Source of the DNA: Glycomyces algeriensis
GTDB taxonomy: Bacteria > Actinomycetota > Actinomycetes > Mycobacteriales > Micromonosporaceae
DNA length: 64,000 nucleotides
Direction: 5' to 3'
Assembly (NCBI RefSeq): GCF_027622855.1
Contig: NZ_JAPZVR010000007.1
Span: 154,524 to 218,523 of the forward strand
Shown here: positions 18,125 to 36,726 of the stretch, one piece after another
How the letters are laid out: every line of letters begins with the position of its first letter
How positions within the stretch are numbered: position 1 is the stretch's first letter
The notes under the pieces: generated by a model
Database searches by the model: none
Seen by the model: only the letters and a program-made list of their open reading frames with translations
Told to the model about the DNA's origin: nothing
Program-made: the position numbers and the translations under genes

Positions 18125-18814
18125 GTGGGCACAGGCGACTACGAACTGCTCTGGGGCGAGGTGTCCCGTCCCAGCCGGGGACGGCCTGCGGGACTCAGCC
18201 GGGAACGCATCGTCGCCGAAGCTAGGGCCATCGCCGATGCCGAAGGGCTGCAGAAGGTCTCCATGAAGCACCTGGCGGAGAGGCTCGGCAGCGGGGTCAT
18301 GTCCCTCTACCGGCATGTGCCGGGCAAGGACGAGCTCGTCCTCCTCATGTACGACTCGCTCATGACCGGGCCGCCCCCGATCCCGGAGGCCGACCACTGG
18401 CGCGAGATTTTGCGCGGCTGGGGGCAAGGCGTGCGGGGGCTCTTCAATACGCATCCGTGGGCGCTGAGCGTGGCGACGTCCGAGCGGTCGATGGGGCCGG
18501 GAGAGGCGACCTGGGTGGACGCCGTAATCGGGCGACTCACGGCCGTCGGCATGCCCATTGAGCTCGCCCTCATCTCAGTGCTCACCGTCGACTGCTTCGT
18601 CATGGGCGCCGTCCGCCCCGAACTGGCCGGCGACAGCGGCGAAGCCGAGTTCTTCCAGTTCCTCGCCGACCCGGCAATGCGCGCGCGGTTCCCCAACCTC
18701 GCACTCCTCACCCAACCCGGTGCCGCCACCGACGTCGCCATGGGGGACCACTTCGAGTTCGGCCTCGAACGCGTCCTCGACGGCCTCGAACGCCACATCG
18801 AAACCAGCGCATAG
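18125..18814 (+). CDS. TetR-family regulator, 229 aa
   Basis: Helix-turn-helix is LSRERIVAEARAIADAEGLQKVSMKHLAERLGSGVMSLYRHVPGKDELVLLMYD near residues 20-75, with a TetR_C_1-type ligand domain as in TetR and tetracycline-like sensors. The GTG at 18125 is preferred; an ATG-like start at 18056 would put the protein across the palindrome. It is divergent from a DUF2306 membrane protein and probably represses it and itself through the 38-base palindrome. The ligand is unknown. Confidence 0.85.
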   Translation: MGTGDYELLWGEVSRPSRGRPAGLSRERIVAEARAIADAEGLQKVSMKHLAERLGSGVMSLYRHVPGKDELVLLMYDSLMTGPPPIPEADHWREILRGWGQGVRGLFNTHPWALSVATSERSMGPGEATWVDAVIGRLTAVGMPIELALISVLTVDCFVMGAVRPELAGDSGEAEFFQFLADPAMRARFPNLALLTQPGAATDVAMGDHFEFGLERVLDGLERHIETSA

Positions 18815-18894: not shown

Positions 18895-18983
18895 ATCCTA
18901 TAGGATATATCCTATATGCTCGGGCCAGATCCTATAGGATATATCCTATCGGGTCGCGCGGAATCCTATAGGATATATCCTAT
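18895..18983. repeat. Three copies of a 19-base palindromic repeat at exact 34-base spacing
   Basis: ATCCTATAGGATATATCCT followed by AT begins at 18895, 18929 and 18963, exactly 34 bases apart. It contains the palindromes TCCTATAGGA and AGGATATATCCT overlapping by five bases. Spacers between copies are GC-rich and unrelated. It lies in the gap between a TetR terminator and the 3' end of the dicarboxylate symporter gene, five bases before that gene's stop. A second triplet of the same element is at 35370-35477. Confidence 0.9.
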
Positions 18984-18987
18984 GGCG

Positions 18988-20355
18988 TTAAGCGGGTTGC
19001 AGCGCGGGCTCGCCCTTACGGGGCGCCTCGTCAACGTCGTCCGCCTCCTCAGCGTCACCACCGAACGCCGCCTCGGCGTCCAGCGGCACCGGAGCCGAGT
19101 CGTACACCTCGCGGTCGAGGATCTTCTCCGACTTCGCCACGATCACCGGCACCACCATCTGCCCGGTCACGTTGGTGGCCGTGCGGATCATGTCCATGAT
19201 CGGGTCGATCGCGAGCAGCAGGCCCACACCTTCAAGCGGCAGGCCGAGCGTCGAGAGCGTCAGGGTCAGCATCACCGTCGCGCCGGTCAGGCCCGCGGTC
19301 GCCGCCGAGCCGATCACCGAGACGAACGCGATGAGCAGGTAGTCCTGGATGCCCAGCGGCACGTCGTACACCTGCGCCACGAAGATCGCGGCGATCGCCG
19401 GGTAGATCGCGGCGCAACCGTCCATCTTCGTCGTCGCCCCGAACGGCGACGCGAACGACGCGTAGTCGCGCGCCACGCCGAGCCGCTCGGTCACGATCCG
19501 CTGCGCCAGCGGCAGCGTGCCCACCGACGAGCGCGACACGAACGCGAACTGGATCGCCGGCCATGCCTTGCGGAAGAACTGCACCGGCGAGACCTTCGCG
19601 ACCAGCCGCAGCAGCACCGGGTAGACCACGAGCATCACGATGAGCGCGCCCACGTAGATGTCGATGCTGAACACCGCGAGCGGCTCCAGCAGGTCCCAGC
19701 CGTACGCGAACACCGAGTTGCCGATGAGCGCCGCGGTGCCGATGGGCGCCAAGCGGATCACCCACCACAGGGCCTTCTGGATCAGCGCCAGCGCCGACTC
19801 GTTGAACTTCAGGAACGGCTCGGCTTTGGCGCCGAGCTTCGCGGCGGCCGCGCCCACAATGATCGCGATGAACACGATCTGCAGCACGTTCACGTTCACG
19901 AACGCGTCGACCACGTTGGTGGGGATGATCCCGGTCAGGAAGTCCGTCCAGGAACCGGTGGTCTCCGGCGCCGCGGCGGGACTAGTGAGGGTCACGCCCT
20001 CGCCGGGGTTCGTGGTCAGGCCGATGGCGAGGCCGATCGCGACGGCGATGGCCGAGGTCAGCGCGAACCAGCCGAGGGTCTTGGCGACCAGGCGGCCCGC
20101 GTTCGCGAGGTTGCGCAGGTTGGCGATCGAGGCGACGATCGCGGTGAACACCAGGAACGGGACGATGAGGAACAGGAGCTGCACGAACAGCGTCCCGATC
20201 GTCTCGAGGGTGGTGCCGAGCCACGCGACGGACCATTCGCGGGCGACGTAGCCGAGGACGAGGCCGAGCGCGAGGCCGATCAGGAGCTGCCACGCGAACG
20301 GGATCTTGAAGCGCTTGCGCTGCTTGGAGTCGTTTGCTGCCGCGGTTGCGGACAT
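18988..20355 (-). CDS. Dicarboxylate/amino acid:cation symporter (DAACS family), 455 aa
   Basis: About eight helices and two re-entrant loops. Signatures present are SRSSVGTLPL in the HP1 loop, FGATTKMDGCAAIYPAIAAIFVAQ in TM7 (the NMDGT-like motif), and GATVMLTLTLSTLGLPLEGVGLLLAIDPIMDMIRTATNVTGQMV. Family members carry glutamate, aspartate or C4-dicarboxylates with Na+ or H+. The start at 20355 gives the usual N-terminus; upstream frame is implausible. The C-terminal 40 residues are acidic. The three palindromic repeats touch its 3' end. Confidence 0.9.
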   Translation of the reverse strand: MSATAAANDSKQRKRFKIPFAWQLLIGLALGLVLGYVAREWSVAWLGTTLETIGTLFVQLLFLIVPFLVFTAIVASIANLRNLANAGRLVAKTLGWFALTSAIAVAIGLAIGLTTNPGEGVTLTSPAAAPETTGSWTDFLTGIIPTNVVDAFVNVNVLQIVFIAIIVGAAAAKLGAKAEPFLKFNESALALIQKALWWVIRLAPIGTAALIGNSVFAYGWDLLEPLAVFSIDIYVGALIVMLVVYPVLLRLVAKVSPVQFFRKAWPAIQFAFVSRSSVGTLPLAQRIVTERLGVARDYASFASPFGATTKMDGCAAIYPAIAAIFVAQVYDVPLGIQDYLLIAFVSVIGSAATAGLTGATVMLTLTLSTLGLPLEGVGLLLAIDPIMDMIRTATNVTGQMVVPVIVAKSEKILDREVYDSAPVPLDAEAAFGGDAEEADDVDEAPRKGEPALQPA

Positions 20356-33098: not shown

Positions 33099-35342
33099 AT
33101 GAACGCACCTACCAGCGTGCCCGCAAACACGCAGGCCACCGCACTCGGCTACCCGCGCATCGGCCCGAACCGCGAGCTCAAGCGCGCGCTCGAGGCCCAC
33201 TGGTCCGGCCGGCTCGACGCCGCCGGACTCGAAGCCGCCGCCGCTTCCGTCCGCTCCGGGATGCTCGACGATCTCGCCGTGCTCGACACGGTCCCCACCG
33301 GGACGTTCTCGCTCTACGACCACGTGCTCGACACCATCGTGGCCGTCGATGCGCTGGCGCCCCGGCACCGCCGCGAGGGCGAGCTCGCCTCCTACTTCGC
33401 GGCTGCGCGGGGTGATGAGGAGGCCGTGCCGCTCGAGATGACGAAGTGGTTCGACACGAACTACCACTATCTGGTTCCGGAGATCGGGCCTGAGACGGTG
33501 TTCGCGGCCAAGCCTGGCAAGGCGGTCGCCGAGTTCCTGGAGGCGAAGGCGCGCGGCCTGGACGCGCGGCCTGTGCTGCTCGGACCGGTCTCGCTACTTT
33601 TGCTCGCCAAGCCGAGCGAGGACGCGCCCGCCGATTTCGCGCCGTTCGACCGGCTCGACGACCTTGTCGAGGTGTACGTGGAGCTGCTTGCGGCCCTGCG
33701 TGACGCGGGGGCGGAGCTCGTCCAGATCGACGAACCCGCGCTCTGCGCGGACCGGTCCGAGGTTGAGCTCGCGGCTGTCGCCGCGACGTACCGCCAGCTG
33801 GTCGCCCGCTCTGCGATCGTCGTCGCAGGCGGATACGGGCCCTTCGGCGAGGCACTGCCGGTGCTCTTGGAGGCTGGGGTCGAAGGTGTCGCACTGGATC
33901 TCGTGCGTGGCCGCAGTGACCTGGAAGCACTTGAGGCACTGAATGTTTCACGTGAAACACTTTTGCTCGCGGGTGTGGTCGACGGCCGCAACATCTGGCG
34001 CACCGACCTCGCTCAGGCTGGCGCCGATATCTCACGGCTGCAACGCATCAGCGATCGCGTCGCGGTCTCCTCGTCCTCGTCGCTGCTGCACGTGCCCGTC
34101 GATCTGGATGCTGAGCACGAGCTGCCCGACGCGCTGATCGAACGGCTCGCGTTCGCGCGACAGAAGCTCCGCGAGATCACCGCCCTCGCCGACCCGGAGG
34201 GTTCGCGGGCGGCGCGTCCGGACGCTCCTGACGCCTGGCGCGACGAGGCCGTGCGCTCGCGGCTCGCCGAACTGGGCGCCGATGCCGACCGGCGCATTCC
34301 TTACGCCGAACGCCAAGCGGCCCAAGCCGAACGCGTGCCGCTGCCGTTGCTGCCGACCACGACCATCGGCTCGTTCCCGCAGACCGCGGAGCTGCGCAAC
34401 GCCCGCGCCGCGCACCGCCGCGGCCTCATGATCGACGCCGATTACAAGGCCCGCATGAAGGCCGAGGTCGCCATCGTCATCGCCGAGCAGGAGAAGCTCG
34501 GACTGGACGTGCTCGTCCACGGCGAGCCGGAACGCAACGACATGGTGCAGTACTTCGCGGAGCAGCTCACCGGTTTCGCGACCACCGCCGCGGGCTGGGT
34601 CCAGTCCTACGGTTCACGCTGCGTCCGCCCGCCCGTGCTCTACGGGGACGTCGCGCGGACGGCGCCCATGACCGTCGAGTGGACCTCGTACGCGCAGTCG
34701 CTCACCGAGAAGCCCGTGAAGGGCATGCTCACCGGGCCGGTGACGATCCTGGCCTGGTCGTTCGTGCGCGACGACCAGCCGCTGGCGGAGACGGCCGACC
34801 AGGTCGCGCTCGCGCTGCGCGACGAGGTGGCCGACCTCGAGGCCGCCGGGACGGCGATCATCCAGGTCGACGAGCCCGCGCTGCGCGAGCTGCTGCCGGT
34901 GCGGGCCGCTTCCCGTGCGGCTTACCGGGACTGGGCGACGCGCTCGTTCCGGATCGCCACCGCGGGCGTGCGGCCGGAAACCTCGATCCACACTCACCTC
35001 TGCTACTCGGAGTTCGGTGAGGTCATCGACGCGATCGCCGCGCTGGACGCAGACGTGACCTCGATCGAGGCCTCGCGCTCGAAGATGGAGGTCCTCGCCG
35101 ACCTCGACCGCGCGAACTACCGCAGCGCGGTCGGCCCGGGCGTGTGGGACATCCACTCGCCGCGCGTCCCCGCCGCCGACGACATGGCCGAAGCGCTGCG
35201 CCTCGCGGTGGCCGCGCTCGGCCCGGAGCGGGTGTGGGCGAACCCGGACTGCGGCCTGAAGACCCGCCGCTACGAGGAGGTCCGGCCGTCGCTGGAAGGC
35301 CTCGTCGCAGCGGCCCGCACGGTGCGCGAACAGCTCGCGTAA
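33099..35342 (+). CDS. metE: 5-methyltetrahydropteroyltriglutamate-homocysteine methyltransferase, 747 aa
   Basis: Cobalamin-independent methionine synthase. The N-terminal TIM barrel starts ATALGYPRIGPNRELKRALEAHWSG and the C-terminal barrel starts LLPTTTIGSFPQTAELRNARAAHRRG. Zinc ligands are visible as His and Cys in SIHTHLCYSEFG, Glu in VTSIEASRSKMEV and Cys in VWANPDCGLKTR. It transfers the methyl group from methyltetrahydrofolate-polyglutamate to homocysteine in the cytoplasm. Length matches the family. A cobalamin riboswitch controls it, implying a B12-dependent MetH elsewhere in the genome. The 19-base palindromic repeats begin 28 bases after its stop. Confidence 0.97.
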   Translation: MNAPTSVPANTQATALGYPRIGPNRELKRALEAHWSGRLDAAGLEAAAASVRSGMLDDLAVLDTVPTGTFSLYDHVLDTIVAVDALAPRHRREGELASYFAAARGDEEAVPLEMTKWFDTNYHYLVPEIGPETVFAAKPGKAVAEFLEAKARGLDARPVLLGPVSLLLLAKPSEDAPADFAPFDRLDDLVEVYVELLAALRDAGAELVQIDEPALCADRSEVELAAVAATYRQLVARSAIVVAGGYGPFGEALPVLLEAGVEGVALDLVRGRSDLEALEALNVSRETLLLAGVVDGRNIWRTDLAQAGADISRLQRISDRVAVSSSSSLLHVPVDLDAEHELPDALIERLAFARQKLREITALADPEGSRAARPDAPDAWRDEAVRSRLAELGADADRRIPYAERQAAQAERVPLPLLPTTTIGSFPQTAELRNARAAHRRGLMIDADYKARMKAEVAIVIAEQEKLGLDVLVHGEPERNDMVQYFAEQLTGFATTAAGWVQSYGSRCVRPPVLYGDVARTAPMTVEWTSYAQSLTEKPVKGMLTGPVTILAWSFVRDDQPLAETADQVALALRDEVADLEAAGTAIIQVDEPALRELLPVRAASRAAYRDWATRSFRIATAGVRPETSIHTHLCYSEFGEVIDAIAALDADVTSIEASRSKMEVLADLDRANYRSAVGPGVWDIHSPRVPAADDMAEALRLAVAALGPERVWANPDCGLKTRRYEEVRPSLEGLVAAARTVREQLA

Positions 35343-35369
35343 GGCCGCTGCCCCGCCCCCGGATCGCAC

Positions 35370-35477
35370 ATCCTATAGGATATATCCTGCAGGATCTGGG
35401 GGCGGGGCAGCGAATCCTATAGGATATATCCTGCAAGATCCGGGAGTTGGCGATGGATCCTATAGGATATATCCTGC
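35370..35477. repeat. Three copies of the 19-base palindromic repeat at 44/43-base spacing
   Basis: ATCCTATAGGATATATCCT followed by GC starts at 35370, 35414 and 35457. Copies 1 and 3 continue into AGGAT, making a second palindrome TCCTGCAGGA; copy 2 has one change there. The core is identical to the three copies at 18895-18983. They lie between the metE stop and the alr start. The spacing here is about one helical turn longer than in the first locus. Confidence 0.9.
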
Positions 35478-35538
35478 AGGATTTTGGCCGGAGCGCTGCT
35501 GTCCGGGCCCTCGGCGGCGGGCACGTACCCTTGCATAT

Positions 35539-36726
35539 GTGGCGATCGACAACTTCCGCGTCCTGACCGAGCCCGAGTTCGGGACCATGTCCGGCCTGGC
35601 GAAGGCCAGTGCCGACTGGCGGCGCTTGGCGCACAACGTCGAGGCGCTGGCGGCCGTCGCCAGGGTGCCGATGATGGCGATGGTGAAGGCCGACGGGTAC
35701 GGGCACGGCATGGTCCCGACCGGGCGGGTCGCGATCGAAGCCGGGGCCGCGAGCCTCGGGGTCGTGACCCTCAGGGAGGCATGGCAGCTCAAGCGCCTGC
35801 CCGACCTCGCGGACACGACCGTGATGGCCTTCTTCTTCGCCCCCGACCAGCCCGGCCTGACCGAGGTCGTGGGCGCGGGGATCGAACTCGGGGTCTCCTC
35901 GCTGGCGCAGCTCGACGCGGTCGCCGCGGCGGCCGACCGGGCCGGGCGTCCCGCCCGCATCCACCTCAAGGGCGACACCGGCATGTCGCGCGGCGGCGTC
36001 GCCGAGCACGAATGGGCGTTCGTCGCCGAAGCCGCGGCGAAGCACCAGGCGGCCGGTTCACTGGTCGTCGTGGGCGCGTGGAGCCACATGGCGTGCGCCG
36101 ACGAGATCGGCCACCCGGCGAACGCCGAGCAGAAGGCGGCGTTCGAGCGGTTCCTGGAGACCGTGGCCGCGTCGGGACTGGAGCCTGAAGTGCGGCATCT
36201 CGCGAACTCGGCGGCGCTCATCGCCGACCCGCAGACCCGCTATGACATGGTGCGACCCGGCATCGCCCTGTACGGCTACAACCCGGTGCCGCAGTTCGCG
36301 GTCGACCTGCAGCCGGTGATCGAGGTGCGGTCGGTCGTGATGTCGGTGAAGCGGATTCCGGAGGGCACCGGCATCTCCTACGGCCACACCGTGCATCTGG
36401 AGCGGGACACGAACGTGGCGCTCGTGCCGCTCGGGTACGCCGATGGTGTGCCGAGGGCCGCTTCGGGGAAAGCTGAGGTGTACCTGGCGGGCAGGCGCCG
36501 CCGGGTGCTGGGCCGGATCTGCATGGACCAGTTCATGGTCGACTGCGGCGACGACGCGGTGAAACCCGGTGAGCCGGTGGTGCTCATCGGCGCGGGCGCG
36601 CAGCACCCCGACGCGGACGACTGGTCGGCATGGGCCGGGACGATCCCGAACGACGTGCTGACGGGGCTCGGGTCGCGGGTGCCGCGGTTGTGGAACCGGG
36701 GCCTGGCGCCCCTCGGGGGCGCCTGA
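35539..36726 (+). CDS. alr: Alanine racemase, 395 aa
   Basis: PLP-dependent fold-III enzyme that makes D-alanine for peptidoglycan. The PLP lysine is Lys50 in MAMVKADGYGHGM, the second catalytic base is Tyr in GTGISYGHTVHLERD, and the C-terminal domain has RRVLGRICMDQFMVDCGDDAVKPGEPVVLIG. It begins with a GTG at 35539; about 16 extra residues precede the usual start, and an internal ATG at 35587 is possible. It heads the alr-hydrolase-tsaE-tsaB-rimI-tsaD string typical of actinomycetes. The repeats at 35370-35477 lie in its promoter area. Confidence 0.95.
   Translation: MAIDNFRVLTEPEFGTMSGLAKASADWRRLAHNVEALAAVARVPMMAMVKADGYGHGMVPTGRVAIEAGAASLGVVTLREAWQLKRLPDLADTTVMAFFFAPDQPGLTEVVGAGIELGVSSLAQLDAVAAAADRAGRPARIHLKGDTGMSRGGVAEHEWAFVAEAAAKHQAAGSLVVVGAWSHMACADEIGHPANAEQKAAFERFLETVAASGLEPEVRHLANSAALIADPQTRYDMVRPGIALYGYNPVPQFAVDLQPVIEVRSVVMSVKRIPEGTGISYGHTVHLERDTNVALVPLGYADGVPRAASGKAEVYLAGRRRRVLGRICMDQFMVDCGDDAVKPGEPVVLIGAGAQHPDADDWSAWAGTIPNDVLTGLGSRVPRLWNRGLAPLGGA

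Follow-up and report, generated by a model that had tools for sequence, protein, structure and literature searches.

The window analysed here, a stretch of 64,000 nucleotides from the soil actinobacterium Glycomyces algeriensis with a G+C content of 70%, contains two arrays of a palindromic unit of 24 bp that stands out against this base composition. One array is located between metE and alr, at the 3' end of metE and also 57 bp upstream of alr, and has exact matches to ATCCTATAGGAT at positions 35370, 35414 and 35457 (steps of 44 and 43 bp). The other array has exact ATCCTATAGGAT matches at 18895, 18929 and 18963 (steps of 34 and 34 bp). An initial sequence-only reading had described a 19-base core occurring three times between metE and alr at 44 and 43 bp, and had named a spacing of 34 bp for the copies at another site, which is the array near 18.9 kb. 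Both descriptions are correct, and the core, ATCCTATAGGATATATCCT, has the same letters in all six copies in the window. The reading had also proposed that the core between metE and alr continues into a further palindrome; this applies to copies 1 and 3, which carry the extension TCCTGCAGGA, but not to copy 2, which has TCCTGCAAGA. With up to two mismatches allowed, 10 matches were detectable in the window, compared to a mean of 0.23 in shuffled sequences (10 matches being reached in none of 100 shuffles). The features of the two loci are the following.

18125..18814, forward strand: gene for a TetR-type regulator, to the left of the 34-bp array and pointing at it
18896..18919, no strand assigned: 34-bp array, copy 1
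18930..18953, no strand assigned: 34-bp array, copy 2
18964..18987, no strand assigned: 34-bp array, copy 3, ending at the stop codon of the convergent gene
18988..20355, reverse strand: gene right of the 34-bp array and pointing at it; by eye its product looks like a dicarboxylate/amino-acid:cation symporter
33099..35342, forward strand: metE, methionine synthase, upstream neighbour of the array (TIGR01371, above cut-off)
35346..35412, forward strand: GC-rich hairpin behind metE with copy 1 in its loop (arms 35346-35360 and 35398-35412)
35371..35394, no strand assigned: metE-alr array, copy 1, TCCTATAGGATATATCCTGCAGGA
35415..35438, no strand assigned: metE-alr array, copy 2, TCCTATAGGATATATCCTGCAAGA
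35458..35481, no strand assigned: metE-alr array, copy 3, TCCTATAGGATATATCCTGCAGGA
35539..36726, forward strand: alr, alanine racemase, downstream neighbour of the array (TIGR00492, above cut-off)

The 24-bp unit consists of two dyads of the TCCTATAGGA-TATA-TCCTGCAGGA type, the centres of which are 14 bp apart. The first dyad is TCCTATAGGA; the second one varies (TCCTGCAGGA, TCCTATATGC and others). By eye, the units run in 7-base steps (TCC-TATA-GGA-TATA), and a 14-bp step was found for 79 of the 101 gaps inside units, a count from which the overlap between loci has not been removed. This step is a firmer regularity than the phasing of the arrays. It had been suggested that the spacing would place the copies on the same face of the helix. 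Taking one spacing for each of six arrays in the G. algeriensis genome (34, 34, 44, 43, 44 and 67 bp), we obtained an R of 0.87 at 10.5 bp (p-value of 0.005), with a better fit at 11 bp (R of 0.91), and it should be noted that two of these six arrays had themselves suggested the helical idea. Seven arrays of other species showed no such phasing (R of 0.36, p-value of 0.42). Same-face spacing, for which the signal in G. algeriensis is weak, is thus at most a feature of this one genome.

Distribution and position of the repeat

The genome-wide search that the sequence-only reading had called for was carried out on the 5.59-Mb draft genome of G. algeriensis (G000). It yielded 62 matches to TCCTATAGGATATATCC at no more than two mismatches (33 forward, 29 reverse) and 38 exact TCCTATAGGA dyads, with 0 matches in the control in either case. 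The element family occupies 33 distinct places, four of which (L033, L047, L049 and L056) have no exact dyad. The flanks of the copies mostly differ, so that the copies are not merely parts of longer sequence repeats. Two loci on different contigs (L277 and L279, on C13 and C31) are identical over 2917 bp and have one dyad each, located between divergent genes; the identity reflects either a recent duplication or redundancy of the assembly.

Numbers of exact TCCTATAGGA dyads similar to the 38 of G. algeriensis were found in G. artemisiae (G011, 37 dyads) and G. buryatensis (G010, 35 dyads). Five further Glycomyces genomes have 21, 16, 14, 10 and 9 dyads, and the remaining fourteen have 1-7 each. 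Other genera of the same family, 15 in all, have 0-5 dyads, and the 24 genomes sampled from other families have 0 or 1. The reversed-motif control gave 0 or 1 matches in every genome of the comparison. When named genomes were scanned for exact matches to 18 bases of the unit, 32 stretches were obtained, 31 of them from Glycomyces. The only named match outside this genus, in Aquincola tertiaricarbonis (L094:2031-2048), lies upstream of an aminotransferase-like gene and may be due to chance. Our text search of the literature retrieved no work that names TATAGGATATATCC, and found the TCCTATAGGA string only under unrelated titles; the combination of Glycomyces with repeat and palindrome terms gave no match.

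The copies resemble each other over more than the first dyad. Information above background reaches about 3 bases past each unit end, and 29 of the 37 anchored dyads have a second dyad 14 bp away, compared to 1.5% at control offsets. In total, the copies share about 44 bits, whereas about 18 bits would be enough to mark 38 sites. This excess, together with the frequent second dyad, favours an origin of the sites by copying. Alternatively, the excess could indicate that two dimers are needed for binding.

Position relative to genes was assessed with a crude codon-usage gene caller of our own. The count for six Glycomyces genomes covers all 33 places of G. algeriensis and, for the other genomes, those places that had been retrieved (18 for G. 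buryatensis and 11 for G. artemisiae), with identical contexts merged, L277 and L279 thus being counted once. It comprises 30 places in convergent gaps, 34 in tandem gaps, 13 in divergent gaps and 1 inside a called gene, and 31 of the 34 tandem places are closer to the stop codon of the upstream gene. The 14 places in other genera are distributed differently (1 convergent, 6 tandem, of which 3 nearer the stop codon, and 7 divergent). For G. algeriensis itself, 15 of 32 places are in convergent gaps, which make up 13% of the sampled intergenic bases (p-value of 4e-6), and half of the places with a 3' distance (n = 28) are no more than 18 bp from the stop codon. The sequence-only reading had offered a small mobile repeat as one possible role, and this guess is borne out in so far as the distribution is a dispersed one at gene 3' ends. 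Tandem GC-rich short repeats adjoin some copies (L035 from 2725, L053 before 2988, L048 before 2994).

A putative operator of a GntR/FCD regulator

One copy in G. algeriensis is situated in the divergent gap before a regulator gene whose product has GntR and FCD domains. This gene is flanked on one side by genes like those for aldo/keto reductase, fuconolactonase and 2,4-didehydro-3-deoxy-rhamnonate hydrolase, and on the other side by LutA/LutB-like genes; the LutB model scored above its cut-off and the sugar-pathway models below theirs. The regulator is present in 21 of 22 Glycomyces genomes (E ≤ 1e-40; G014 lacks it), and each of these 21 loci has an exact TCCTATAGGA no more than 170 bp upstream of the regulator gene. 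Among eight regulator loci in other genera, three have the exact dyad, two a dyad with one mismatch and one a dyad with two mismatches, and two have no site. The dyad also precedes a GH95 glycosidase gene in G000 and G006, and GH95 includes alpha-L-fucosidases. In the other genera, dyads are further found before genes for sugar-binding proteins (G030 and G031), before the pair of aldo/keto reductase and regulator genes, and before an enolase-like gene and genes with a CCG domain.

This conservation before the regulator and its regulon genes is comparative evidence that TCCTATAGGA is a fucose-type operator. More precisely, (A)TCCTATAGGA(T) appears to be the operator of the GntR/FCD repressor of an L-fucose/L-rhamnose-type regulon, and the earlier suggestion of a regulator site is thereby upheld in part. 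Two properties of an operator were found, namely a dyad conserved before the regulator gene and dyads before regulon genes in other genomes. A promoter position was not found for the metE-alr array, the 18.9-kb array and most Glycomyces copies, all of which are at 3' ends. On the regulator tree, the backbone of which is without resolution, three changes are needed for the eight genomes whose operator is a double dyad, and this form of operator may be of single origin.

A Lys-rich C-terminal tail of the regulator (L041:3054-3764) is present in most Glycomyces, missing in G001, G003, G013, G016 (G. arizonensis) and G020, and absent from other genera. Such a tail, along with dozens of near-identical palindromes, would suit a site for chromosome architecture of the matS or Noc kind, to which a nucleoid protein, or the regulator in its place, would bind; a nucleoid-protein site had also been among the roles offered by the sequence-only reading. 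We nevertheless regard this as very unlikely, as a range from 1 to 38 dyads within one genus is unlike an essential site, and in G001 and G003, despite their 16 and 21 dyads, respectively, the regulator has no such tail.

Symmetry, gain and loss of the copies

The palindrome might also act as a hairpin in the transcript, either as a terminator or as a stabiliser of mRNA 3' ends. Every unit is able to fold, and the hairpin behind metE, with copy 1 in its loop, has a GC stem of 15 bp (MFE of -53.3 kcal/mol, z of -6.9); GC arms are present at a few other copies (L046, L050, L276, L284). However, no T-run follows the metE hairpin, and a terminator scan returned 0 for the metE array. Separately, nine weak matches to Rfam families in 35200-35700 were discarded, every one being far under its gathering score. 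Pairing between the flanks was no better than that of re-paired flanks: among 71 of the 79 contexts (arrays left out), 222 of 2000 re-paired shuffles scored at least as high, as did 168 of 200 in another run on the 23 non-array sites of G. algeriensis. Moreover, compensated double changes kept the local dyad in 13 cases and the long hairpin in 4. When dyads change they thus keep their local symmetry, which favours a DNA-binding dyad, although 8 of the 13 compensated local changes represent one TG-CA change that may have been inherited. Since the unit sequence is, in addition, that of a DNA operator, we consider a role as RNA element improbable.

To follow gain and loss, 14 gene ends that carry a copy in G. 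algeriensis were compared with those of six relatives. The nadC-coaX gap measures 42 bp in G. algeriensis, 2-4 bp in five of the six relatives and 132 bp in G. arizonensis; the nuoB-nuoC gap measures 51 bp, as opposed to an overlap in three relatives (-4 in two of them). At fadA (no row for G. buryatensis) and leuS, the copy is part of additional sequence that the closest gene ends lack. The absence of the copy from relatives with a shorter gap indicates that the copies at some of these genes are insertions. Other species may have a different AT-rich palindrome at gene ends that carry a copy in G. algeriensis. A similar element is present in G. artemisiae behind 4 of the 14 genes (3 with an exact dyad) as opposed to 0 of 14 control genes (p-value of 0.049), a pattern more in keeping with retention or selection than with neutral turnover. 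No excess was observed for the AT-rich islands of G. arizonensis (4 of 14 genes versus 2 of 13 controls, the row for one control gene being missing). Such TATANNN-like islands, mostly without an exact dyad, stand behind many G. arizonensis genes (L196, L200, L288, L314, L328). The 7-base pattern is lengthened to seven steps behind ahcY in G. artemisiae and is blurred in G. arizonensis.

These data bear on a further possibility, namely that the repressor bound behind genes serves as a functional roadblock or insulator against read-through from one convergent gene into the other. The strong bias towards 3' ends and convergent gaps, the many sites at 0-20 bp from stop codons, the sharing of the element by G. 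algeriensis and G. artemisiae at four gene ends, and the dyads that stay symmetric on change would all be in line with such a function. On the other hand, copies occur within the gene runs nuoB-nuoC and nadC-coaX, where a block would be polar, a GC hairpin is already present beside several copies, most relatives have the same genes without the site, and the recurrent TG-CA change lowers the weight of the compensated changes. We therefore judge a roadblock unlikely, yet the foremost of the alternatives. Somewhat less probable still is that a local sugar repressor was recruited in one actinobacterial genus as a genome-wide 3'-end binding protein, its operator having been copied behind dozens of genes; the bound repressor would then mark transcription boundaries or make them sugar-responsive.

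As for the way in which copies spread, long flank matches between species, besides the regulator's own site, are limited to three pairs among 79 contexts. Two pairs in G. algeriensis have 60 and 97 bp of flank in common, one of them with the ahcY end. The latter match (L049 around 3047, L047 around 2958) comprises an ahcY end plus element with 94% identity over 97 bp and stops within the ahcY hairpin. At the ahcY 3' end, a segment of about 31 bp that takes in the region of the stop codon is duplicated in tandem in G016 and G012, and partly in G010 (L143, L139, L142). Target-site duplications showed no excess over 28 loci; by eye, 7-8 bp repeats are present at the edges of the nuoB copies of G000 and G009. 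No candidate enzyme for the spread was found. A classical REP or REPIN element, moved by a RAYT (Y1) transposase, shares with our unit the form of a short extragenic palindrome, single or clustered, and Y1 matches are present in the copy-bearing genomes G001, G003, G009, G013 and G016. Indeed, the unit is extragenic, palindromic, 20-40 bp long and dispersed. However, PF01797 has 0 matches in G. algeriensis, G. buryatensis and G. artemisiae, the genomes with the highest copy numbers, and in G. paridis (G004), and neither the consensus nor the flanks contain a GTAG or CGTC tag, a feature of REP elements according to PMC3733652. In the absence of both the tag and a cognate Y1, this assignment is the least probable of all those considered.

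Proposed origin and comparison with known systems

The explanation that we put first, with intermediate confidence, is that a small dispersed repeat specific to Glycomyces lineages contains the operator dyad of the GntR/FCD repressor once or twice. The repeat would have arisen from the operator and spread by some copying process. Its copies would persist chiefly downstream of genes, since promoters and reading frames would be harmed by a site for the repressor. The direction from operator to repeat is favoured, since the dyad in front of the regulator is older than the genus and the 3'-end copies are not. The repressor probably binds the 3'-end copies, which would then represent a sink of decoys rather than local switches. 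It should be noted that a repeat is at odds with the lack of systematic target-site duplication, with the four of 33 places in G. algeriensis that lack an exact dyad, and with the islands of G. arizonensis that mostly lack it.

Operators are normally few and located at promoters. An operator that has seemingly turned into a dispersed repeat would be a natural case of operator titration on a large scale, and would make it possible to study how dozens of additional sites for one repressor are tolerated in a genome. Should the 3'-end sites act, a repressor would be used there in a new way. With 1 to 38 dyads per genome, Glycomyces provides a ready set for comparison.

Intrinsic terminators built on a repeated motif, such as the uptake-sequence terminators of Neisseria and Haemophilus, are likewise conserved palindromes behind genes. 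The present unit differs from them in that flank pairing is not above chance, a T-run is missing at the metE site, and its identity is that of a DNA operator. With the REP, BIME and REPIN elements, as portrayed in PMC3733652, the unit has in common that they are lineage-specific extragenic palindromes of 20-40 bp, single or in small arrays; here, the GTAG/CGTC tag and, in high-copy genomes, Y1 are lacking, and the unit corresponds to a repressor operator. The unit also resembles the operators of GntR/FCD sugar-acid repressors (FadR subfamily), where a short dyad centred on A/T likewise lies upstream of the gene for an FCD regulator and of its catabolic genes. Both have a further half-site or dyad next to the first, as described for GntR sites at large in PMC4494728, whereas the core TCC-TATA-GGA departs from the subfamily consensus TKGT/ACMA given there. 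What sets the Glycomyces dyad apart from these operators is that about 30 more copies stand behind unrelated genes.
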